Shown here: positions 5,470 through 18,340 of the stretch, in pieces
Position numbering within the stretch: position 1 is the first letter of the stretch
How the letters are laid out: every line of letters starts with the position of its first letter
Assembly (NCBI RefSeq): GCF_003332305.1
Contig: NZ_QOIO01000025.1
Span: 1-64,000 of the forward strand
Origin: Microvirga aerophila
GTDB taxonomy: Bacteria; Pseudomonadota; Alphaproteobacteria; Rhizobiales; Beijerinckiaceae
Direction of reading: 5' to 3'
Length of the DNA: 64,000 nucleotides
Program-made: the position numbers and the translations under genes
The notes under the pieces: model-generated
Databases searched by the model: none
What the model was told of the DNA's origin: nothing
Seen by the model: only the letters and a program-made list of their open reading frames with translations

Positions 5470-5554
5470 GCGGGCGTGGCGGAATTGGTAGACGCACTGG
5501 ATTTAGGTTCCAGCGGCGCAAGCTGTGGGGGTTCGAGTCCCTCCGCCCGCACCA
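5470..5554 (+). tRNA. tRNA-Leu (anticodon UAG)
   Basis: 85-nt class II tRNA with a long variable arm and encoded CCA. The acceptor arms GCGGGCG and CGCCCGC pair; the anticodon stem-loop CTGGATTTAGGTTCCAG gives anticodon UAG, reading CUN leucine codons; the T-loop is GGTTCGAGTCC. Such 3' ends are common integration sites for islands. No repeat of its 3' end was found downstream in the window. Confidence 0.93.
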
Positions 5555-5581
5555 TCAAGGCCACCAACGCGGGGCCATGCC

Positions 5582-6395: not shown

Positions 6396-7487
6396 TCATG
6401 TGACTGAAGAAGGCAGTGGCGGCGTCGGCAGGAAAAGCACCTTGGCCCTTGTGCTCATGGGCTCAAGCTGTGCATCTTCTTCGGCTTCATCCGACATGAG
6501 GTGGATTTCACCATCGACCAGCCACCAATCACAATAGCGCCGGTAAAGATCACGAGCATGCTTCGTGTCACCCTCTTCCGCGATGGCCGCGATAATCTGC
6601 TCGAGCGTGATATAACGAAATCCAACGGTCCAGGCCGCTGCCCCAGCGAGCTCGCATTGGTACTGCGCCACCGTCTGAACCTGCATGTTGTGCTCTGGCC
6701 CAAGCAACAGCAGGGTTCCTTCCGCGTAACCGTCTTGATGCAGCATTCTTTCGCTCAGAAGCTGCAGCCGCAGCAACTGCAGCGATCGGTTCGTCCCCAA
6801 GGCTTTACGCTTAGGCCCAAGGCCTAGGCTGGTTGTCCTTGCGAGTTCGGCATAGCGAGCCTTGAGGCTCTCAAGCGGGTCGATGAAACCGTCCGCGTAT
6901 TTGATCTCAAGGGCGATGAATCCTCTCTTACCCTGGGGCAGGCTATACCGAACAAGGACATCAAAAGCCGTGCTTCCGCTCTCGTATGCCCCACCACGTG
7001 GTCCCGAGGCATACTCGAACCGAATGTCTTCAACGGTCATGTCACGGCCCGGAAGCAGCCGGCAGAAGACCGCTGTCGCAAGATCCCGGTGGAGCTTCAA
7101 CTGTCCGAACACGTTGAAGGCCAACTGCTGGGGCGACAGCAAGTTAAGGTAAAGGTTCTCGGGATCGATCACGGCCCCAATCTCGTGGTCTATGAGTTCG
7201 CGACGAACGAGGGTAGCGATTTCACGAGATAGGAAGCCTCCGCCTGCCCTGCCGATGGACGGCGCTAGACGGGAGCCCAAGGGCTGGCGCTTGCCGTCGG
7301 GTCCATGGGCTTGTCCGGCGGGGTAACCCCGATCCTCACGCCAAAGGCTTTGTAACAAGCGGACGGCGGACTTGAAGCCGTTGTCCGCTTGCCGATAGCA
7401 CTGATGTCGTTTGAGGATCTCAGTGGGTACAACGGGCATCTGGGGGATCGGGCCAAGGCCTAAGGGGTCAAATAAGGTATTGATCAT
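6396..7487 (-). CDS. PD-(D/E)XK nuclease-like protein (PGN_0703-type candidate)
   Basis: 363 residues, ATG start with AGGA seven bases upstream. Around residues 180-215 it reads STAFDVLVRYSLPQGKRGF followed by IALEIKYADGF. This gives an aspartate, then a Glu-x-Lys on the next strand, the core of the PD-(D/E)XK nuclease fold, and the Ser/Ala-Phe-Asp context resembles the PGN_0703 family of putative restriction endonucleases. Family assignment rests on this motif alone. The rest is alpha/beta with an Arg/Leu-rich helical segment (RSLQLLRLQLLSERML). No methyltransferase or other restriction partner is adjacent, so a stand-alone nuclease is the most likely reading. Substrate unknown. Confidence 0.55.
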   Translation of the reverse strand: MINTLFDPLGLGPIPQMPVVPTEILKRHQCYRQADNGFKSAVRLLQSLWREDRGYPAGQAHGPDGKRQPLGSRLAPSIGRAGGGFLSREIATLVRRELIDHEIGAVIDPENLYLNLLSPQQLAFNVFGQLKLHRDLATAVFCRLLPGRDMTVEDIRFEYASGPRGGAYESGSTAFDVLVRYSLPQGKRGFIALEIKYADGFIDPLESLKARYAELARTTSLGLGPKRKALGTNRSLQLLRLQLLSERMLHQDGYAEGTLLLLGPEHNMQVQTVAQYQCELAGAAAWTVGFRYITLEQIIAAIAEEGDTKHARDLYRRYCDWWLVDGEIHLMSDEAEEDAQLEPMSTRAKVLFLPTPPLPSSVT

Positions 7488-7700: not shown

Positions 7701-8105
7701 TCACCAATCCGATCGGGCCGGAAATCTCTGAACATCATCGAAAGCCGCCATCAACGCATCCACCTCCCGAAACGTAAACTCTTCTTCATAATAAGCGTCC
7801 CAAAGAACCCAAAGGGCACGCCCGATCTGCTCACCGTCATAAAAAAGCGGGAAGTAATTTGCTGCAAATAGCCGCTGCCCATATGCTTCCGTACCAAACT
7901 TTCGCATAGCGATGACGTAAAACAAGCCAGGACCACGAACGTCTTCAATGGGTGTGTCGATTTGGCCGGGCTGCACTTTAAAAGCCCAATGCTGTCGGTC
8001 AGGATCGGCCATAAACGTTATGGTGTCTGTCATCCGCAGGAAAGGGTTTATCTCGTACCTTCTTAAGAGAAAACCACCTGCATCGATGGGCATGATGATA
8101 GCCAT
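7701..8105 (-). CDS. Family A paralogue 1, function unknown
   Basis: 134 residues, ATG start with AAGG about eight bases upstream. This is the most diverged of four consecutive minus-strand genes that share a layout: an N-terminal strand ending in Arg/Tyr, an IVVR-like segment (here FYVIAMRKF), a basic RRAF-like turn (GQRLFAANYF), an (I/L)xRAxWxxWDAY helix (GRALWVLWDAYYEEEF) and a final AFDDxExFP box (AFDDVQRFP). No signal peptide, membrane span or known domain is seen, so a cytoplasmic protein is likely. Tandem duplication and divergence of a small single-domain protein is typical of conflict or immunity genes, which is inference only. Confidence 0.6.
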   Translation of the reverse strand: MAIIMPIDAGGFLLRRYEINPFLRMTDTITFMADPDRQHWAFKVQPGQIDTPIEDVRGPGLFYVIAMRKFGTEAYGQRLFAANYFPLFYDGEQIGRALWVLWDAYYEEEFTFREVDALMAAFDDVQRFPARSDW

Positions 8106-8256: not shown

Positions 8257-8784
8257 TCATGGCATGCTGGGTGTGTAAGGTTTCGTCGAGCGCTGAAGCC
8301 AGCGGAGGCGCCGAGCAAACGTGGAGGAGTGGTGTCGCGCGTCCGCGATGTACATGCACCCAAGACTTGGAGTATACCGTCCTTTTAGCCTCGGGGTAGA
8401 AACAATAGGTGGAAAATTTATGAGATCGCGGAGGCCCTGCTCCATTACGCTAAGGACATACATGGATGTTTTACCGGAAAACAGATATTGATCCCAGGCC
8501 ACCCACAGCAGCCGGGCAGTTAACTCATCAAAATCAAGCGAAACACTTTCGTCCATAGCGAAAAGACGTCGCTCTAGGGCATCCCACGTGTGGCGGCGCA
8601 CGACAATTAGATACGCCTCAGCGTCATCTGGGTTTTTGAGTTCATCGTCGAACGGCTCTCGAATCCGGTGGGATGAATCCCAGTGGGCTTCGAAGTATTT
8701 CATGTCCGACTCATAAATCTCAGGTGGACACTCGAAGTAGCTTTTCAGCGCGCCGTTTCGCTCAATTGCGGTGAAGTCGGACAT
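8257..8784 (-). CDS. Family A paralogue 2, with C-terminal extension
   Basis: 175 residues. ATG start with AAGGAATT upstream and a promoter 65 bases further. The first 135 residues follow the family A layout: SYFECPPEIYESDMKYFEAH, then HRIREPFDDEL, YLIVVRRHTWDALERRLFAM, ARLLWVAWDQYLF and DLINFPP. The last 40 residues (RYTPSLGCMYIADARHH and a basic Arg/Trp-rich tail) have no counterpart in the sisters and may come from a shifted stop. Function unknown. Confidence 0.6.
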   Translation of the reverse strand: MSDFTAIERNGALKSYFECPPEIYESDMKYFEAHWDSSHRIREPFDDELKNPDDAEAYLIVVRRHTWDALERRLFAMDESVSLDFDELTARLLWVAWDQYLFSGKTSMYVLSVMEQGLRDLINFPPIVSTPRLKGRYTPSLGCMYIADARHHSSTFARRLRWLQRSTKPYTPSMP

Positions 8785-9283: not shown

Positions 9284-9694
9284 TCAGAAGGGCGGTGGAA
9301 GCTTCTCGATGTCGTCAAAGGCCTTAACCGTCATATTCACAACATCACTGGTGAGCGCAATTTCGCCCTCGTAAGCGTCCCATGCCGCCCAAAATGCGCG
9401 CGCAAGTATCTCTTCATCGTCATAGTGGAATGCTCGAAGGAGGCTTGCTTCCCCGCTGCCCTCAATCCAAAAGGCCCGCCGCTGGAACGTATCCGGCGCA
9501 TGCTTTCGCACGACAATTAGATTAGCGTCGTCTTGGCATCCCTCCCGTATCTCACCGGGGTATGGCTTCCGAATGAAGTGAGTACGCTTGCGGTTGTTGA
9601 TAAAGAAATCGCAGTCAGCTCTTTGCACGTACGGGTCTATGTCGAAGTACGGGCGTAGCTTCTCCTCGAAATTGCATGCATTAAGCTCAATCAC
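9284..9694 (-). CDS. Family A paralogue 3, function unknown
   Basis: 136 residues, GTG start with AGGAGA six bases upstream. It has the clearest family A signature: RPYFDIDPYVQRADCDFF, HFIRKPYPGEI, NLIVVRKHAPDTFQRRAFWI, EEILARAFWAAWDAYEGEI and KAFDDIEKLPP. It is closest to paralogue 4, sharing YFDI-P-VQRAD and IRKPYPGE. No known domain recognised. The gene has its own promoter (9757-9785), so each copy is transcribed singly rather than in an operon. Confidence 0.65.
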   Translation of the reverse strand: MIELNACNFEEKLRPYFDIDPYVQRADCDFFINNRKRTHFIRKPYPGEIREGCQDDANLIVVRKHAPDTFQRRAFWIEGSGEASLLRAFHYDDEEILARAFWAAWDAYEGEIALTSDVVNMTVKAFDDIEKLPPPF

Positions 9695-10066: not shown

Positions 10067-10501
10067 CTATCCCCAAATCGGAAACTGTTCGAGATTGTCG
10101 AAAGCGCTCACGAGAATGTTTACAGGATTAATATCGAGGAAGACTTCTGTATCAACGTCGTTCGACAGAACCCATAAAGCACGTCCGATCGCCTCTTCGT
10201 TGCGAGGGTAAAAGGACTTCAGCACCTCTATAAAACTAGATCCCTCAGCGTACGTAACTGTGAAGGCGCGTCGATCGATTAAGCCTGGGCCATGCTGACG
10301 GACCACAACTATGCTCGCTTCATACCGCAGGCAATCCTTTCCGAGCTCACTCGTAAGCTCCCCAGGGTACGGCTTGCGTATCAGATGCCTGCGGTGGGGG
10401 CTCCTGTTGAAGAATGCCCAATCCGCTCTCTGAACATCAGGTGCAATGTCAAAGTAATGGTTTATAGCCTCGCGTGGACCACCCATGCGAACACCTAACA
10501 T
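10067..10501 (-). CDS. Family A paralogue 4, function unknown
   Basis: 144 residues from the ATG at 10501, chosen because AAGGAG lies seven bases upstream and the promoter lies within the longer open frame (to 10669), excluding that start. Family A layout: NHYFDIAPDVQRADWAFF, HLIRKPYPGEL, SIVVVRQHGPGLIDRRAFTV, EEAIGRALWVL and SAFDNLEQFP. The WDAY motif is replaced by SNDVDTEVF. No signal peptide. Function unknown. Confidence 0.65.
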   Translation of the reverse strand: MLGVRMGGPREAINHYFDIAPDVQRADWAFFNRSPHRRHLIRKPYPGELTSELGKDCLRYEASIVVVRQHGPGLIDRRAFTVTYAEGSSFIEVLKSFYPRNEEAIGRALWVLSNDVDTEVFLDINPVNILVSAFDNLEQFPIWG

Positions 10502-10774: not shown

Positions 10775-11227
10775 TTATCCTTTGTGCGCCAGTGGTGCCT
10801 GTAAGGGGTATACCTGTGTGGTCCAAGCAATCTGGATGAGGGTTGTAATGACCGCCTTCTCGTCCGGGGCGACAGACTGTAGTTGGTCACGAAGTTGGGT
10901 ACAAAGCTGATCCAAGTACGGGCGGTCCTCACGTGTGGGTAAGCCCATTCCAATTAGGGTAAGCCGGTGTGAGTGCCAAAGCACCGTCCACAGCTCGACG
11001 GATGTGCCCCGCCACTTTCCCTTATGTTTGGCTTCCTCAAGTCGTTCTTCGTACAGGTCGATGGGCTTCGGCAAACCCAACGCCTTAGCATGGCGGTACA
11101 TGTTGCCGATGGCTTGGCTGAAAAAAAGGGACTGTTTCCATGTGAATGGGTCGGGAATGGCCGAAAAGTCACCTGCTTTAACTTGATCAAGCCAAGTGTC
11201 ATTGTTGGGGGATGAAGTTTGATCCAT
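10775..11227 (-). CDS. Family B copy 1, helical protein of unknown function
   Basis: 150 residues, ATG start. It is clearly paralogous to the next gene along most of its length: MDQTSS, WLDQVKAGDFSAIPDPFTW, SQAIGNMYRHA, DLYEERLE-AK, YLDQLCTQLRDQLQ and a closing IAWTT-YPL. The protein is mostly helical and soluble with no signal peptide or known domain. The leader upstream of the start is also conserved between copies, so the duplicated unit includes its regulation. Function unknown; its relation to the nearby HUH genes suggests a partner or regulator, which is inference. Confidence 0.7.
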   Translation of the reverse strand: MDQTSSPNNDTWLDQVKAGDFSAIPDPFTWKQSLFFSQAIGNMYRHAKALGLPKPIDLYEERLEEAKHKGKWRGTSVELWTVLWHSHRLTLIGMGLPTREDRPYLDQLCTQLRDQLQSVAPDEKAVITTLIQIAWTTQVYPLQAPLAHKG

Positions 11228-11483: not shown

Positions 11484-11933
11484 CTACCCCTGGTATGAGA
11501 ATGGCACGGGTAAGGGATAGCGCTCGGTCGTCCATGCGATCCTGATGAGGGTCATCAGGGTGGCCTTCTCGTGAGGAGGTACTGCTTGGAGTTGGTCACG
11601 AAGCTGGGTGCACAACTGGTCCAAATATGGCTCGTCTTCAGGGGCGGGTAGGTCAACCGCCATCATTACGAGGTGGTACGCATACCACAACGCCACCCAC
11701 AACTCGACCGTGGTCCCGCGCCACTGCCCCGTGCGCTTAGCTTGCTCAAGCCGTTCTTCGTACAAGTCCCTTGGCTTCGTTAAGCCCACGGCTCGGGCGT
11801 GGCGGTACATGTTGCCGATGGCCTGGCTGAGTAGGAGGGCTCGGTCCCACGTGAAGGGATCGGGGATGGCGGAAAAGTCACCTGCTTTGACCTGGTCGAG
11901 CCAGGCGTCGTCGGTAGATGAAGTTTGATCCAT
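11484..11933 (-). CDS. Family B copy 2, helical protein of unknown function
   Basis: 149 residues from the ATG at 11933 (MDQTSSTDDAW). The open frame extends further upstream, but only from this ATG does it align with copy 1; the extra part is the conserved non-coding leader. The conserved blocks are WLDQVKAGDFSAIPDPFTW, LLSQAIGNMYRHARAVGL, DLYEERLEQAKRTGQWRGT and YLDQLCTQLRDQLQ. It stands divergently 373 bases from the HUH gene at 12307. No domain recognised. Confidence 0.7.
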   Translation of the reverse strand: MDQTSSTDDAWLDQVKAGDFSAIPDPFTWDRALLLSQAIGNMYRHARAVGLTKPRDLYEERLEQAKRTGQWRGTTVELWVALWYAYHLVMMAVDLPAPEDEPYLDQLCTQLRDQLQAVPPHEKATLMTLIRIAWTTERYPLPVPFSYQG

Positions 11934-12306
11934 GAGGAAGAACGCAGTCCGGGTTTCGAGCACCGGGGTGGTGCTGCCGTGGTGGTTATTCCGTGTGGGC
12001 CAGGAGAAATTCAGTCCCGGCTTTGTCCTGAAGAAGAGCAACACGGGAAGTGAGCACGGGTATGCGCCTTGTGGTTTGGCGACTCACATGCTCCGGGCTG
12101 ACCACCCCATCATACGGTTCCAAAGTGGCATTGGGAATGTAAGGCCACGGCTTTGGGAAATAGGGCTTAAATATCCTTCACGTACAAACACTTAAGCCGC
12201 TGGTTTGCACTGCGCGCGCCAGCTCCTGCCCGCCAATCAAAAATTTCTTCACCGCGGCACAAAACTTCTCCTCTCCTGCCCGGAATAGGCCCGAGCAGAG
12301 GCTCGC
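11934..12306. other. Divergent spacer between family B copy 2 and HUH gene 1
   Basis: The first ~110 bases are the leader conserved in the family B copies, with GTGTTGCTCTTCT and GTGCTCA blocks on the minus strand. The rest should carry promoters for both directions, but no strong -35/-10 pair was identified. Confidence 0.5.
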
Positions 12307-13287
12307 GTGTTTGGTTTTGTCCTGATGTCGGGACGACGCTGGGACCACTGCAGGAAGATGACTCCCGTGGCTAATGATGAATTCCTTTACTCGCCTATTA
12401 CTCCTGACACAGACGTCTTGCTATCGAGCGTCTCCTCAGCGTCTCTCCTGGCGCCTGCGAACGAAGTGGAAGATTGGGACTGGGACCTCCCCTACATACC
12501 GACTGGTACCGTCCGGTGGCGGCCTTCGCGGCTTCGGAACGAGGTGGGCCTTCTTTACGATGCTATGAGCTTCATGAACTGGCAGTACAGTCGCGTGTTC
12601 AACACCCACGTGACGCTAACGTTCAGCAAGATGTGCATTGGGGATCATCGCGAGGCAGCAAGACTGATGCCTCACTGGAACAAAGAGATGAAGCGATGGC
12701 TGGCGATTGGGCCAGACAAGTCGCGGAAGCGTTGGAAGAAGCGCGTACGTGCGGCTGAGCCATCACCGCACCTGTGGGTCTATGTTTTTGAGAACGGCCG
12801 TGACAAGGGCTTCCATGCTCATCAACTCTGTTGTGTCCCGGACTCGCAAGTGAAGGCTTTCGAAGCTCACACTCTCGCCTGGTGGCGACGTGAGGCCTGG
12901 ATTGACTTCCCGGCGGATGCCATTGAAGTCAGGCACTGCCGCACTTACGATGAGAAGAGCGGCTATGAACGGCAAGTTGAATGGTTCAGGTATCTTATCA
13001 AGTCAGCGGCTCGAGACTTCGGATACTTCGGTCTAGATGGCCAAGTCCATTCCGTGGATGAGATTTTCAAGTTAGCCCCTTATTGGGAAACAAACCCCGT
13101 CTACTCGCCTCGCCTTCATGGTATTTGCCACGAGCTGTCTATGAAAAAGCGACGTGAGGCCGGATTTGTGTCAAAGCTGGGCTCGTGCGAGCTCGACGAA
13201 GTGTATTCCGGTTGGGAATTCGATGCCCGTCGTGAACGGATCAAGGCTGAAGAAACTGCAGCCTTTTTGGCTACCCTCAACATCTGA
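12307..13287 (+). CDS. HUH-type Rep/relaxase-like nuclease 1 (candidate)
   Basis: 326 residues; GTG start with AGAGG five bases upstream, though ATGs at 12325 or 12358 are possible. It shows the three motifs of the HUH endonuclease superfamily in order: motif I VFNTHVTLTF (about 97-106), motif II GFHAH (H170, H172) and motif III YLIK (Y229, K232). In HUH enzymes the histidines bind a metal and the tyrosine attacks single-stranded DNA at replication or transfer origins. It is a distant relative of the 15450-16775 protein, sharing also NAxxFxN-type context and the ending TLNI. No mobilisation or phage gene is adjacent. The assignment is by motif, not by recognised family. Confidence 0.6.
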   Translation: MFGFVLMSGRRWDHCRKMTPVANDEFLYSPITPDTDVLLSSVSSASLLAPANEVEDWDWDLPYIPTGTVRWRPSRLRNEVGLLYDAMSFMNWQYSRVFNTHVTLTFSKMCIGDHREAARLMPHWNKEMKRWLAIGPDKSRKRWKKRVRAAEPSPHLWVYVFENGRDKGFHAHQLCCVPDSQVKAFEAHTLAWWRREAWIDFPADAIEVRHCRTYDEKSGYERQVEWFRYLIKSAARDFGYFGLDGQVHSVDEIFKLAPYWETNPVYSPRLHGICHELSMKKRREAGFVSKLGSCELDEVYSGWEFDARRERIKAEETAAFLATLNI

Positions 13288-14016
13288 GCCACAGGTACTG
13301 TGACTACGGACGAGCTAGCTAAGGCTGTCCGCCGCTCGGAAGAGTAAGTTGCTTTCGGCTTCATGCCCATACCAAGTGGGGAGAAGTATGAAGGCAACTG
13401 CTCCTCGTTGGCATATAGTCAGGGGACGCGTCATCCTTGGTTCGGCTCTCGGCCATGATGATCTCTCTAGAGGGAGAGTTCATCATGCTTGTGTTCTCTC
13501 TCAAACTTGGTGAGCGCTTGAGGGAGGCTGTTCCTTGCTGAAGGCAAGGCTTCGCCTCCCGGCGAAGCCTGCTGCCCTCAGCTGCTCTCAAACCCGGAGC
13601 CACGCCGTCGGTTAGCCGTTGGATCGTGATACAACCCTCTTACGGGGAGGCCGGGGTCAGGCGGTCGGCCTTTACATATCGCTTCGTATCTGACGCGGGC
13701 GGACATTGCTGCACGATCCATCAACAACAATGTCGCCTGTGGGTTCGGGGGGCTCCCTTCTCCCACTCCTGCGACACAAGAAACCTTGTGCCGCTTGTGC
13801 CGATGCCCTTCGGCTTATGATCCGGCTGCCCCCGATCACCTGGCTAGCGATGAGGACCAGAGCCCATATGGGGCTGGCATGTCAGCATGAAGTGCCAATA
13901 AGGTGGGGAACAGGTGGCCGCACTTTTCCAGGAGTTGCGGTTCAACCTTGATAGGAGGACCAACGCAGTTCCATTTCGTTTCCATGGCGTGCGTGAAGAG
14001 TCATTGCATCAGCTGC
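13288..14016. other. Intergenic with hairpins, no gene supported
   Basis: About 730 bases. Contents: a perfect 10-bp hairpin AGGCTTCGCC/GGCGAAGCCT near 13549-13572 and an interrupted palindrome around ATGATGATCTCTCTAGAG near 13455-13486. An open plus-strand frame of about 85 codons (13630-13891) lacks any usual start codon. The hairpins could terminate HUH gene 1 or serve as a single-strand origin. Confidence 0.4.
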
Positions 14017-14538
14017 TTATCCGTTTTGAGATTTTAGTAGGGAAAAGAACCGCATCGCCGCAGCACGAGCTAATTCTGGGCGTCGCGCTTCAAAAGCCGC
14101 AGCGATCTCAATGCACGGGTATAAAGGCAGTTGAAGCTCTGGGTCGGTAAAAGGGGGCAGCGGTGTATCGCCAGTTGTAGGCCATGACTCCCCGACAACC
14201 GGCCTACAAATGTCAATACATGGTTCCACAAGTGTACGGATAATTCCCTTCCAGGCGGACTCAATATACATGGGGCTGTCATCGATACAGCTTTCCAACC
14301 ACTCGACAGTAAATTGAAAGTTACGAATTTTCGTCGGTGTAAAATCCAGTGCTGCGTACGCAATGCCGTCGCATAAAAGTCGCTCCAAGATAGCAGTCCG
14401 CTCAGTGCTCTGTACGGTAGCATCAAGCTCTTGCTTTGCTTTGACAGACTCTCGGACAAGGCGGGCCCGGGCTTCGGTGCGTTTCTTGGTGCTGACCCTC
14501 TGGGCCCGGCGGGAGTAGGTACTGCGATGTGGTCGCAT
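14017..14538 (-). CDS. Hypothetical protein of the island
   Basis: 173 residues from the ATG at 14538, which has AGGAAA six bases upstream; a CTATAT -10 element lies at 14595-14590. The N-terminal 50 residues are very basic (MRPHRSTYSRRAQRVSTKKR) and probably helical (ARARLVRESVKAKQELD). A mixed domain with LERLLCDGIAYAALDFTP and VEWLESCIDDSPMYIESAW follows, and the end is alanine-rich. No known family. The basic start suggests nucleic-acid contact, which is inference. Confidence 0.5.
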   Translation of the reverse strand: MRPHRSTYSRRAQRVSTKKRTEARARLVRESVKAKQELDATVQSTERTAILERLLCDGIAYAALDFTPTKIRNFQFTVEWLESCIDDSPMYIESAWKGIIRTLVEPCIDICRPVVGESWPTTGDTPLPPFTDPELQLPLYPCIEIAAAFEARRPELARAAAMRFFSLLKSQNG

Positions 14539-14864
14539 TGGTGGTTTCCTGAAGTCAGTTCGGCTGCGTCTGAAGCAGCGTTCCCACCCATATAGTCTTG
14601 GCAAATGGAACACTGCGGGATCGCAATCCAATTTTGGACTGCCATCTGGTTCAGCTGCCAACCTGTTGGACTAAGGGTTCTTGGCAGATGTTCGTGTGGT
14701 TGAATGTGCGGTCGCAAAAATTCCCACGCTCCGCTAAGGGGAGATGAATTGGACGACGCATCCGCGTTCTTTGCTCGAAATGCGGTCCGAGTGGCTGGCG
14801 ACGTGAACCTCGGGAGGGAGTGAGCCATTTGTTCGTTGCACGTCAGCCGGAACCTGCGTGATAC

Positions 14865-15073
14865 GACGGGTTGATATCGACCCGTGCGCTTGGCGTCTTC
14901 AAGCCGCCTCTCATATGATCGCTTGGGGTCGACATCCCTGCGATCGTGGCGCGCCGCTACATGTTCCCGATGGCTTGGCTGAAAAGGAGGGATTGGCTCC
15001 ACCTCAACGAAACGGCAATGACAGAAAAATCACCCGCTTCGACCAGTTCGAGCCATGCGTCGTCATTGTTCAT
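14865..15073 (-). pseudogene. Family B copy 3, decayed
   Basis: The start MNNDDAWLELVEAGDFSVIA and the block SLLFSQAIGNM match the intact copies, but the next codon is TAG where the others have Tyr-Arg-His-Ala. Similarity resumes in another frame with DPKRSYERRLEDAKRTGRYQP (up to about 14875). At least one nonsense mutation and one frameshift are therefore present. The remnant stands 376 bases from HUH gene 2, mirroring the intact copy 2 and HUH gene 1 arrangement. Confidence 0.75.
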
Positions 15074-15449
15074 AAAGGTTGTCCCGATTTTTGTGGATGG
15101 GCGTCCGTACGTTTCGGCTTGAGCCGTCCACCTCATTTCCGGCCTGATGGCTTGAATCTCGGCCGTCGGCCCGGACCCGAAGAAAAGCACTTACTAAAAA
15201 TGAGCACAGGACGTCGGCTGCGCTGATCACTTTCCCTATGCCATGCGTCGGGCGCATAAGCACTTCGGATGGGAGCGGGAAATGGAAAACCGTTGCATGG
15301 CAAGCAAGGCTCCGGGGCGCTGGCTAAATTTATTTTGCGAGCGAGTACGAGTTTCGGGCCATTGGAAACCATATCTCCTAGTCGGAGACTACCGGTGTTT
15401 ACCTTACAGCCTGCCGTGGCTTGCTCCTCCGACAAATGGGGAACCACGC

Positions 15450-16775
15450 ATGTCCTTCCATCCCACCTCTCGACCACCGCTTGGTCTGTCCGATAAACCT
15501 GGTCCTGACGGGTTCGTGCCGCCACCACATTGGGAACGAAGCCGGGCCGAGTTTGACGCTTATAACGTCGGCGTTGCCTATTCGCCTGATCTTCCGGCAG
15601 CCCCCGCATGGTGGTTCGGAACCGCCCATGAATTTTGGGACCGGCGGTATTGCCTTGCATATGAAGCGCCACCGCCGGGCGATTGCCCGATCGAGCAAGC
15701 AATCGGTTGGTACGTCAGCCACACGCTTTTCATGCTGCCCGTCCATACCACGCACCAAGCTAACCCATTCCTGCAATCGCCCGCCGTCCACCAACCGGCT
15801 GGTGCGACCCACGTGTCTACGAACGGCGACACGGGTGTTCCCGCTATCGTGGATGACCCGCCGCACACGCGGGATGATTACGACGATATTGAGGATTATG
15901 CCCAATATCTTCGCCAATCTGGTTTCGACCTTCGGGACGAACATGGAAAGCCGGTGTGGGTTTCGATCCATGGCACCGGTGAGCAGGCGCGCCTGCATCG
16001 GGCCATCAATGGTGATGGTAAGCGACAATATCAAAGAACATGGGAAGGTTATGGGCAAACCCAGCACCTTGCTGGGCGCGACTTCACGAAACTGTACAAC
16101 GCTGTGGCGTTTGCGAATTGCCAAGGATGGGTGTTGAACACTTTCATCTCCATCTCGTGGAGTACGGTCGGTATCACCACCGATCTGCTCGTGGAACAAG
16201 CGCACCGCCGGTTCAATGAGCGAATGCGCAAGTGGCTTTTGGAACGAGGCCTTCCGCTTGCATGGGTCTGGGTCTTGGAACGGGGCAACACGTATGGCCT
16301 TCACAGCCATATTCATGTTGCGGTGCCTAAGCAACATCGCCGGGATTTTATGCAATGGGCGAAGAAATGCGTGTCACACATTCCCGGGCGGCCACTCGTG
16401 AACACGGAAATAAGCAAGACCGTGCGTTTCGATTGCCGTTCTGACCGAGACGTCGCGGGTCAATGGTGGCGGTTCCCCTATTACGCAAAAGGCGTGGACC
16501 CAGCCGTCGGGTTCCGCGATGCCGACGATAAGCATATCTGGCGGCTTCTGAATGAAGTGGCGGGACTGACTCTGAAACCCCAAGGTCTCGTGAAGACGAA
16601 ACGGGCGGGCGTCTCACGCGCCCTGGATGCCAAGGCTCGAAGGGCGTTTGATGCCCAGTATGGCTTGCCGCCCTTTGCGCTTGCCAATGGGGGCAAGGAA
16701 CCTGCTGACCTCTACACCGATGAATACCTCAAATGGCATGATGCTCAATGCATATTGGGCACGTTGAACATTTGA
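15450..16775 (+). CDS. HUH-type Rep/relaxase-like nuclease 2 (candidate)
   Basis: 441 residues from the ATG at 15450, which has GGGGA eight bases upstream; a longer frame to 15243 exists but its first part has no support. The N-terminal 200 residues are Pro/His/Asp-rich and absent from the sister protein. From about residue 205 the HUH layout appears: WVLNTFISISW (motif I), GLHSHIHVAVP with H285, H287 and H289 (motif II) and PYYAK with Tyr344 and Lys347 (motif III). The C-terminus ends LGTLNI, as in the 12307 gene. It probably nicks single-stranded DNA. No helicase or capsid genes are adjacent, so whether it serves a mobile element or a host function is open. Confidence 0.65.
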   Translation: MSFHPTSRPPLGLSDKPGPDGFVPPPHWERSRAEFDAYNVGVAYSPDLPAAPAWWFGTAHEFWDRRYCLAYEAPPPGDCPIEQAIGWYVSHTLFMLPVHTTHQANPFLQSPAVHQPAGATHVSTNGDTGVPAIVDDPPHTRDDYDDIEDYAQYLRQSGFDLRDEHGKPVWVSIHGTGEQARLHRAINGDGKRQYQRTWEGYGQTQHLAGRDFTKLYNAVAFANCQGWVLNTFISISWSTVGITTDLLVEQAHRRFNERMRKWLLERGLPLAWVWVLERGNTYGLHSHIHVAVPKQHRRDFMQWAKKCVSHIPGRPLVNTEISKTVRFDCRSDRDVAGQWWRFPYYAKGVDPAVGFRDADDKHIWRLLNEVAGLTLKPQGLVKTKRAGVSRALDAKARRAFDAQYGLPPFALANGGKEPADLYTDEYLKWHDAQCILGTLNI

Positions 16776-17678: not shown

Positions 17679-17696
17679 AAAGTGGAGGAGCTCGGG

Positions 17697-17933
17697 ATGC
17701 AGCACGAACGACACGTTAGGCTCTTTCGGAATGGCCGGAACCAAGCAGTTCGGATTCCAGTCGAGTTCGAGCTGCCGGGCGACGAGGCTATCATGCACCG
17801 GGACGGGGACCGGCTGATCATCGAGCCGGTCCGTAAGGGTGGCCTGATCGCCCTACTCGACACGTTGGAGCCACTCGACGAGGACTTCCCCGCCATCGAG
17901 GATAAGCTCAGCACGCCGGAGGACATCTTTTGA
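17697..17933 (+). CDS. vapB: Antitoxin, VapB/AbrB type
   Basis: 78 residues from the ATG at 17697, preceded by GGAGGAG. The N-terminal half (VRLFRNGRNQAVRIPVEFEL, then DEAIMHRDGDRLIIEPV) is a swapped-hairpin AbrB/MazE-like DNA-binding domain as in VapB. The acidic C-terminal end (EPLDEDFPAIEDKLSTPEDIF, cut here as LDEDFPAIEDKL) would thread into the toxin active site. It overlaps the toxin gene by four bases (TTGA), so the two are translationally coupled, and both are likely autorepressed at the palindrome 17657-17678. Confidence 0.88.
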   Translation: MQHERHVRLFRNGRNQAVRIPVEFELPGDEAIMHRDGDRLIIEPVRKGGLIALLDTLEPLDEDFPAIEDKLSTPEDIF

Positions 17934-18340
17934 GCCTCGGGCGCTACATGCTCGATACGAATATCCTCTCCGACATGATCCGCAACCCAGCCGGAAAGGC
18001 TGCGGCGCGTCTGCGTCAGGTCGGAGACGCGAGTGTCTGTACCAGTATCGTTGTCGCCTCGGAGCTGCGCTACGGTGCGGAGAAGAAGGGCTCCGAGAAG
18101 TTAACCGCCAGGGTCGAGGCCGCGCTGCGAGAGATCGAAGTCCTGGCGCTCGACGTGCCGGCCGACGCGCATTATGGCGTGGTTCGCAGCCGCCTTGAGT
18201 GCGAGGGACGGACGATCGGACAGAATGACCTCCTTATTGCCGCGCATGCGCTTTCGCTCGGAATGACACTGGTCACGGACAACGTACAGGAGTTCAACCG
18301 TGTTGATGGGCTCCGGATCGAGAATTGGTTGGACGGGTAG
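17930..18340 (+). CDS. vapC: PIN-domain toxin VapC
   Basis: 136 residues, TTG start overlapping the vapB stop; the next possible start is the ATG at 17948. The PIN nuclease acids are present: Asp in YMLDTNILSDMI, Glu in VVASELRYGAEK, and Asp residues in GQNDLLIAAHAL and LVTDNVQEFNRV. VapC toxins cleave RNA, often initiator tRNA, when the labile antitoxin is lost. The pair is a complete type II toxin-antitoxin module at the border of the island. Confidence 0.92.
   Translation: MSLGRYMLDTNILSDMIRNPAGKAAARLRQVGDASVCTSIVVASELRYGAEKKGSEKLTARVEAALREIEVLALDVPADAHYGVVRSRLECEGRTIGQNDLLIAAHALSLGMTLVTDNVQEFNRVDGLRIENWLDG

Follow-up and report, generated by a model that had tools for sequence, protein, structure and literature searches.

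A Microvirga aerophila locus with two HUH endonuclease genes as a probable rearranged descendant of a small integrative element of Alphaproteobacteria

We analysed a stretch of 64,000 nucleotides from Microvirga aerophila (assembly GCF_003332305.1, contig NZ_QOIO01000025.1, positions 1–64,000 of the forward strand; hereafter the window), which holds genes for a PDDEXK_13 nuclease and for two HUH endonucleases, HUH1 and HUH2, together with members of two further families, A and B. The first-pass annotation of this DNA had read each HUH gene and a divergent family B gene as a linked pair and had proposed an old duplication of that pair. The following genes and features concern us here:

5470..5554, plus strand: tRNA-Leu(tag), detected with ARAGORN, the likely boundary of the inserted DNA
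6396..7487, minus strand: PDDEXK_13 nuclease gene (Pfam PF20796, 293.5 bits at a cut-off of 27 bits)
7701–8105, 8257–8784, 9284–9694 and 10067–10498, minus strand: family A, four paralogues in tandem that an iterated profile search unites
10775..11227, minus strand: family B copy 1 (B1), 68% identical to B2
11484..11933, minus strand: family B copy 2 (B2), with a profile match to the B genes of eight related loci
12307..13287, plus strand: HUH1, a Rep-like HUH endonuclease with the motifs E..G.H.H and Y..K; the start may be 12358
14870..15073, minus strand: family B copy 3 (B3), a broken remnant with an internal stop codon and a frame change
15450..16775, plus strand: HUH2, a deeply diverged second HUH endonuclease (PF23343, 27.5 bits), in a frame open from 15204

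The open frames of B2, HUH1 and HUH2 and the decay of B3 are thus as the first-pass annotation had described them. The PDDEXK_13 protein is full-length, and its residues D176, E194 and K196 are invariant in a four-row alignment; we take them to be the PD-(D/E)XK site, and as far as the sequence tells the nuclease signature is intact.

Relatives of the locus were collected by one profile scan of genome contigs, based on a PDDEXK_13 alignment and prompted by four HUH relatives (G635, G647, G704 and G194) in which a PDDEXK_13 gene adjoins the HUH gene in divergent orientation and, in G647, is followed by a B gene. The scan matched 82 stretches, 24 of which encode relatives, and yielded 23 loci, whose gene content was derived from profile searches over their reading frames. 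Four loci lie on short or cut contigs (L042, L056, L057 and L058) and 19 have at least 6.8 kb of upstream DNA; the set is not fully independent, as L046, L047 and L049 represent a single type of element, L043 closely resembles L053, and the loci of G647 and G704 appear identical to L036 and L047, with matching gene coordinates. An HUH gene is found upstream of PDDEXK_13 on the opposite strand in 18 of these 23 loci, about 0.1 to 4.5 kb away and in the same orientation in all 18; counted over the loci with at least 6.8 kb upstream, this is 18 of 19, with L048 as the sole exception. DUF2958 is encoded in 12 loci, B in eight and a small gene, C, in eight. Where B is present it always lies downstream of PDDEXK_13, on the same strand and after DUF2958. 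A tyrosine integrase gene is present in 14 loci (in pieces in L054; DUF6538 and Phage_integrase domains in the three scanned), on the HUH side in 12 of them, and in 13 it has a tRNA gene no more than about 0.2 kb away (eight Gln, four Ser, one Leu). In its fullest form the unit reads tRNA – tyrosine integrase – (C) – HUH (backwards) – PDDEXK_13 – DUF2958 – B – other genes. If these genes had come together by chance in a hypervariable region and shared no function, this would account for the window's own gene order, which is unlike the conserved one, and for its broken B copy; given a divergent HUH–PDDEXK_13 pair in 18 of 23 loci and one orientation throughout, we find this barely credible for HUH and PDDEXK_13.

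The pair is also met when other samples are searched. PF20796 has six matches in 249 genomes of the order, four of them full-length (G000, G019, G194 and G218), and three of these four genomes carry a divergent HUH gene (G000, G019 and G194, the window's own genome among them); the two partial matches have no HUH gene in the surrounding 16 kb. Searches centred on HUH gave nine relatives (the window's genome excluded, the weak match G699 included), of which five have PDDEXK_13 nearby: G194, G635, G647, G704 and a Roseomonas plasmid, the last with divergent HUH and PDDEXK_13 genes and other genes between them, as in the window. Viral contigs contained one locus with pieces of PDDEXK_13 and no HUH profile match. 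We further observed two Bosea loci (L053:7971-9037 and L055:7014-8088) with PDDEXK_13 broken into two reading frames, where the nuclease may have been lost while HUH and B stay open.

The ends of the unit are defined best in Rhizobium rosettiformans (L046) and Pseudochelatococcus contaminans (L047), hosts from different bacterial families, which have a block of 11,321 bases in common at 99.8% identity and no further similar stretch in the 17 kb compared. This block extends from a tRNA-Gln gene to a point where 17 bases of that gene's 3' end are repeated, and the same 17-base repeat ends L049 and L039. Because a 99.8% identical copy in two families stops at attachment (att) sites of tRNA-Gln, we conclude that the unit is mobile; this element with known ends is bounded by tRNA att sites adjoining an integrase. 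Ten L047 proteins, several of them without any match, were searched against Pfam and gave no conjugation, capsid, packaging or coupling-protein gene.

The two HUH proteins of the window find each other in tblastn searches (E = 3e-6 to 5e-6, 22.7% identity over 150 residues; identity 21–27%), and from their sequences we judge them to be distant but real homologues, as had been claimed. An alignment of 14 HUH proteins has 11 invariant columns, including E162, G168, H170, H172, P178, F185, Y229 and K232 in HUH1 numbering; Tyr229 is the putative catalytic tyrosine, and nuclease activity is predicted. Matches to PF23343 (REP_ORF2-G2P) score 17.4 and 27.5 bits in the window, the higher value being that of HUH2, 16.9 bits in L037 and 20.0 bits in L047, all below the curated cut-off of 27.8 bits and HUH2 just below it. 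The predicted HUH1 model (mean predicted local distance difference test, pLDDT, 77.6; residues 1–68 poor) has 16 fold matches with E ≤ 0.001 among predicted viral proteins, mostly nameless and one of them a microvirus replication initiator; solved Rep domains of parvovirus and adeno-associated virus match more weakly (best E 5e-3). The modelled fold thus appears Rep-like and resembles that of viral replication initiators. Searches of Pfam, PHROGs and NCBIfam assign neither HUH1 nor HUH2 to an IS91/ISCR or RAYT family, no search for transposon ends having been made.

In the tree, the nearest relative of HUH1 is the HUH protein of L039, a tRNA-Gln element (48% identity over 267 columns). HUH2 falls outside the 13-row clade that contains HUH1 (support 96/96) and groups far off with L052 (88/62). 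When HUH1, HUH2 and the HUH protein of L043 were searched against 72,556 plasmid records, HUH1 had no match, and the other two matched one and the same record, the Roseomonas plasmid. HUH2 was not found in viral contigs, nor HUH2 or the L043 protein in 50,697 phage records. Two side observations concern the proteins themselves: (i) TLN(I/L) or TLQI forms the last residues of eight of the 14 aligned proteins and may be a C-terminal signal (HUH1 at 13273–13284, HUH2 at 16761–16772, and those of L036, L037, L040, L041, L043 and L053), and (ii) repeats of about 187 bases, 88% identical, occur within the HUH frame of L045 (L045:1705-3543).

A phage satellite, excised on phage infection, replicated by its HUH protein and packaged by a helper phage, would share with the unit the tRNA-site integrase and the small size (about 11.2 kb in L046 and L047), and both the missing conjugation genes among the L047 proteins scanned and the fold match to a microvirus initiator would suit it. 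The same ten L047 proteins, some without any Pfam match, nevertheless include no capsid, packaging or phage-hijacking gene, the phage records hold no relative of HUH2 or of the L043 protein, and the single locus in viral contigs has PDDEXK_13 pieces and no HUH profile match. We regard this origin as doubtful, though worth keeping in view.

Pairwise comparison of related units shows that their genes do not diverge in step. PDDEXK_13 is 90%, B 84% and HUH 35% identical between L044 and L050; PDDEXK_13 is 89%, HUH 45% and B 48% identical between L036 and L040; B is 84% and HUH 27% identical between L041 and L055. The reverse case is L043 and L053, with HUH at 94% and B at 69%. From these sequences, HUH, and B to a lesser degree, seem either to be exchanged between units or to change fast. 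If HUH is exchanged, different HUH genes beside related B genes do not require a duplicated pair.

One branch of the HUH tree (support 99/96) has a further property. In five of 20 HUH genes tested, all of this branch, the segment with the HxH codons is present a second time as an inverted copy of 66–95 bases, 21–34 bases past the HUH stop codon; neither HUH gene of the window has one.

L036:6214-6297, L040:6095-6166, L041:6252-6322, L043:6076-6163 and L053:6221-6315: inverted HxH copy, 87–99% identical to the element's own gene

The copies of L040 and L041 are 97–99% identical to their own genes, and the same segment is 72% identical between the two genes; those of L043 and L053 are 94% identical to each other and 87–90% to their own genes. 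By these identities, only some elements have a copy that tracks the gene it came from. Possible roles are pairing with the HUH message and inversion of the gene end; alternatively, the copy could be a by-product of replication.

Family B has multiplied in the window. B1 and B2 are repeated with their upstream and downstream flanks at a period of about 708 bases, and the B3 fragment, which begins at 15073 and runs into a stop codon after 38 residues, is 59–64% identical to both over 36–37 residues. We compared alignment scores with those of 200 shuffles. DNA upstream of B1 aligns with DNA upstream of B2 at z = 14.2 and, more weakly, with DNA upstream of B3 at z = 3.0, no shuffle being as good in either case. 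By sequence, one B gene was duplicated in tandem together with its flanks to give B1 and B2. The three copies, 59–69% identical, form a tight clade of their own (100/100; the tree program warns of long branches around it). B2 is predicted to be all-helical (pLDDT 80.7); its best fold match in the PDB has an E value of 1.5, which names no function, and it has no Pfam match. Ten B proteins give scattered weak Pfam matches (best E 0.0036, two members), B1 and B2 have none in PHROGs or NCBIfam, and no family B member was confirmed in viral contigs. The family is rare in the genomes sampled, occurring in two of 249 genomes of the order and two of 385 of the class, the window's genome counted in both.

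The proposed duplication of a B–HUH pair, in which B would be partner or regulator of HUH, drew on the same orientation and similar spacing of the two pairs. Spacings of 373 and 376 bases are obtained with the annotated starts. Alternative in-frame starts exist for HUH1 (12325, 12358 and 12367) and for HUH2 (15243, 15282, 15297 and 15516), so that this near-equality is one of about 20 start-codon combinations and does not stand out from chance. Spacer homology as a mark of pair duplication was rejected, since the spacers of the two pairs are no more alike than shuffled sequences (z = 1.3, 21 of 200 as good; for the HUH-proximal 230 bases, z = 0.3, 75 of 200). An old joint duplication also finds no support in the trees, in which the B copies are one young clade and HUH1 and HUH2 lie in different branches. 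The suggested linkage fared better: B and HUH may belong to one genetic unit, read in opposite directions, and HUH is divergent from the arm that carries B in all eight B-bearing loci. B is, however, not the direct neighbour of HUH in the relatives: in all eight, PDDEXK_13 is next to HUH, followed by DUF2958 and then B. Co-occurrence likewise holds in part. B is present in eight of the 23 loci found through the nuclease and in one of the nine HUH-centred relatives (G647), whereas searches with B alone returned three clear relatives, in G027, a Microvirga terrae plasmid and a Sphingomonas plasmid; in the 12–40 kb read there, neither an HUH nor a PDDEXK_13 profile matched, and a weak match, G261, has neither in the DNA read. 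These matches indicate that B can occur apart from HUH. In the two plasmids the B domain is part of a longer frame: in Microvirga terrae (L012:5980-6678) it runs on into a gene annotated as Ada metal-binding, and in Sphingomonas (L013:5401-6312) it makes up the C-terminal portion of a protein of 303 residues. Since HUH sequences seem to be exchanged between units, the pair could have been duplicated and one HUH gene later replaced, which would hide the event; on balance we consider the duplication improbable.

Genes of anti-phage type are found near several units: SIR2-HerA after B (L040), a cytosine methyltransferase after PDDEXK_13 (L054), a TIR protein (L052), a GajB-type helicase near the G194 copy and weak methyltransferase-like matches in L037. 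A PDDEXK_13 gene without HUH (G218) has a cyclase and a phospholipase of a cyclic-oligonucleotide-based anti-phage signalling system (CBASS) nearby. One could thus read HUH and PDDEXK_13, which adjoin, as the two nucleases of a defence system that attacks invading DNA, its mobility being incidental, and both the defence genes among the neighbours and the CBASS genes beside a lone PDDEXK_13 would agree with this. Against it, the pair sits core-like between the integrase and the variable genes where the integrase is on the HUH side, the fold of HUH is like that of replication initiators, and two PDDEXK_13 proteins compared with the PADLOC models matched none. A defence system is therefore unlikely in our view.

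How the window relates to the conserved unit can be read from its borders and gene order. Two further genomes of the genus have a tRNA-Met/Leu stretch to which the window's DNA is similar, and this similarity ends at 5554–5556, the last bases of tRNA-Leu. G+C content is 0.51–0.57 over 7–18 kb, about 0.58–0.63 before and 0.64–0.75 just after, and the DNA to the right of the unit has its best plasmid matches in Microvirga. An empty site was not seen, as left and right flank do not occur together in the four stretches of the genus that were read. In contrast to the conserved order, four A and two B genes lie between PDDEXK_13 and HUH1, and the tRNA gene is on the PDDEXK_13 side, as in L038. That B has come to lie next to HUH in the window is explained by the multiplication of B, by the A and B genes now placed between PDDEXK_13 and HUH1, and by the presence of another HUH lineage. 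Family A has no relative in 32 other loci scanned and no NCBIfam match, and at most weak matches in Pfam and PHROGs (best E 0.049). Separately, the right end of the low-G+C stretch carries a gene pair for a MazE-type antitoxin and a PIN-domain protein (17682–18340, plus strand), followed downstream by an impB/mucB-family (IMS) gene. The window copy is probably a rearranged derivative that no longer moves by itself. Taking relatives and window together, we consider it likely that the region descends from a small integrative element of Alphaproteobacteria built as an HUH/PDDEXK_13 unit and is by now rearranged and probably immobile.

A number of observations weigh against this reading. (i) In the window, positions 1–24000 contain no profile match to integrase, C or DUF2958, and no convincing att repeat was found for its tRNAs; its membership therefore rests on PDDEXK_13, HUH1 and B. 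(ii) Among the relatives, an att repeat lies within the DNA compared in only four of 11 tRNA-bearing loci tested, and in L038 and L048 the integrase is on the other side, beyond PDDEXK_13. (iii) The pair is not universal: L048 has PDDEXK_13 and an integrase and no HUH, G218 lacks HUH, L058 has none within its 5.1 kb of upstream DNA, and four of the nine HUH-centred relatives (G191, G213, G671 and G699) have no PDDEXK_13 in the DNA read. (iv) The HUH assignment draws on Pfam matches below the curated cut-off; the PDB gave no fold match for HUH1 with E ≤ 0.001, with a non-HUH human elongation-factor complex in second place, and no sequence match below E 0.1. (v) No origin of transfer (oriT) or replication origin was identified, and the DNA between HUH and PDDEXK_13 of 12 loci has no obvious motif in common, as judged by eye; part of this DNA resembles further small reading frames. 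(vi) PADLOC found no defence match for four proteins from elements whose two ends are known (three from L047, one from L039), and because of this we describe the anti-phage genes as neighbours and only presume them to be cargo.

For the likely ancestor, an integrative HUH/PDDEXK_13 element, the boundaries and the one recent copy in two families suggest that the integrase would excise the unit as a circle and integrate it at a tRNA att site. Fold and motifs suggest that HUH would cut one strand at the origin of this circle, stay bound through its tyrosine and then start rolling-circle replication, helper-dependent transfer or both. PDDEXK_13, DUF2958 and B would form a co-directional accessory operon, possibly engaged in processing of the circle or in interference with competing DNA. 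More tentatively, and as a possibility we would not press, the units may constitute an undescribed tRNA-integrating class in which an exchangeable HUH gene faces a constant PDDEXK_13–DUF2958–B operon, the HUH type sets compatibility or helper choice, anti-phage genes are spread, and one branch uses its inverted HxH copy as an antisense or inversion switch that limits the initiator.

What looked like an odd gene pair thereby becomes a class of elements that has defined ends, shows a sign of recent transfer and offers a core that can be tested. The mobile-element type that combines an integrase with a rolling-circle initiator would extend to Alphaproteobacteria, and PDDEXK_13, DUF2958 and B, for which the libraries searched name no function beyond the nuclease superfamily, would gain a system context. 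The unit is a possible vehicle for anti-phage genes in soil bacteria, and because HUH diverges strongly between units that are similar in other respects, what sets compatibility or helper range becomes a testable question.

No description of this gene set was found in the open-access literature, as judged by titles and the beginnings of abstracts, most subscription journals lying outside this search. At the level of protein family, the HUH proteins have HxH and Y..K in common with REP_ORF2-G2P (PF23343), with weak matches of 17–28 bits below the family cut-off and a fold like that of viral initiators. At the level of the element, integrase, att repeats and recent host transfer, the features of an integrative and mobilizable element (IME), were found in the relatives, whereas integrase and att repeat were not found in the window, and no mating-pair genes were found among the ten L047 proteins searched against Pfam. 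The integrative elements of Gammaproteobacteria that the available part of PMC10214605 describes as putatively non-mobilizable are alike in being integrative, a likeness of description. Hitcher elements (mobilizable islands and satellites) lack a full transfer apparatus and need a helper, according to the part of PMC11389934 available, which also relates the MOBC relaxase family to restriction enzymes; a similar need for a helper is proposed here, for a unit without identified helper, oriT or packaging signal. The closest described relatives, going by the accessible portion of PMC5704250, are streptococcal IMEs with putative relaxases related to rolling-circle initiators. Measured against that portion, the unit described here differs in being alphaproteobacterial, in using mostly tRNA-Gln and tRNA-Ser sites, in having REP_ORF2-G2P as the nearest family of its Rep protein, in the lack of a coupling protein among the L047 proteins searched, and in carrying a constant PDDEXK_13 arm that is read away from Rep.

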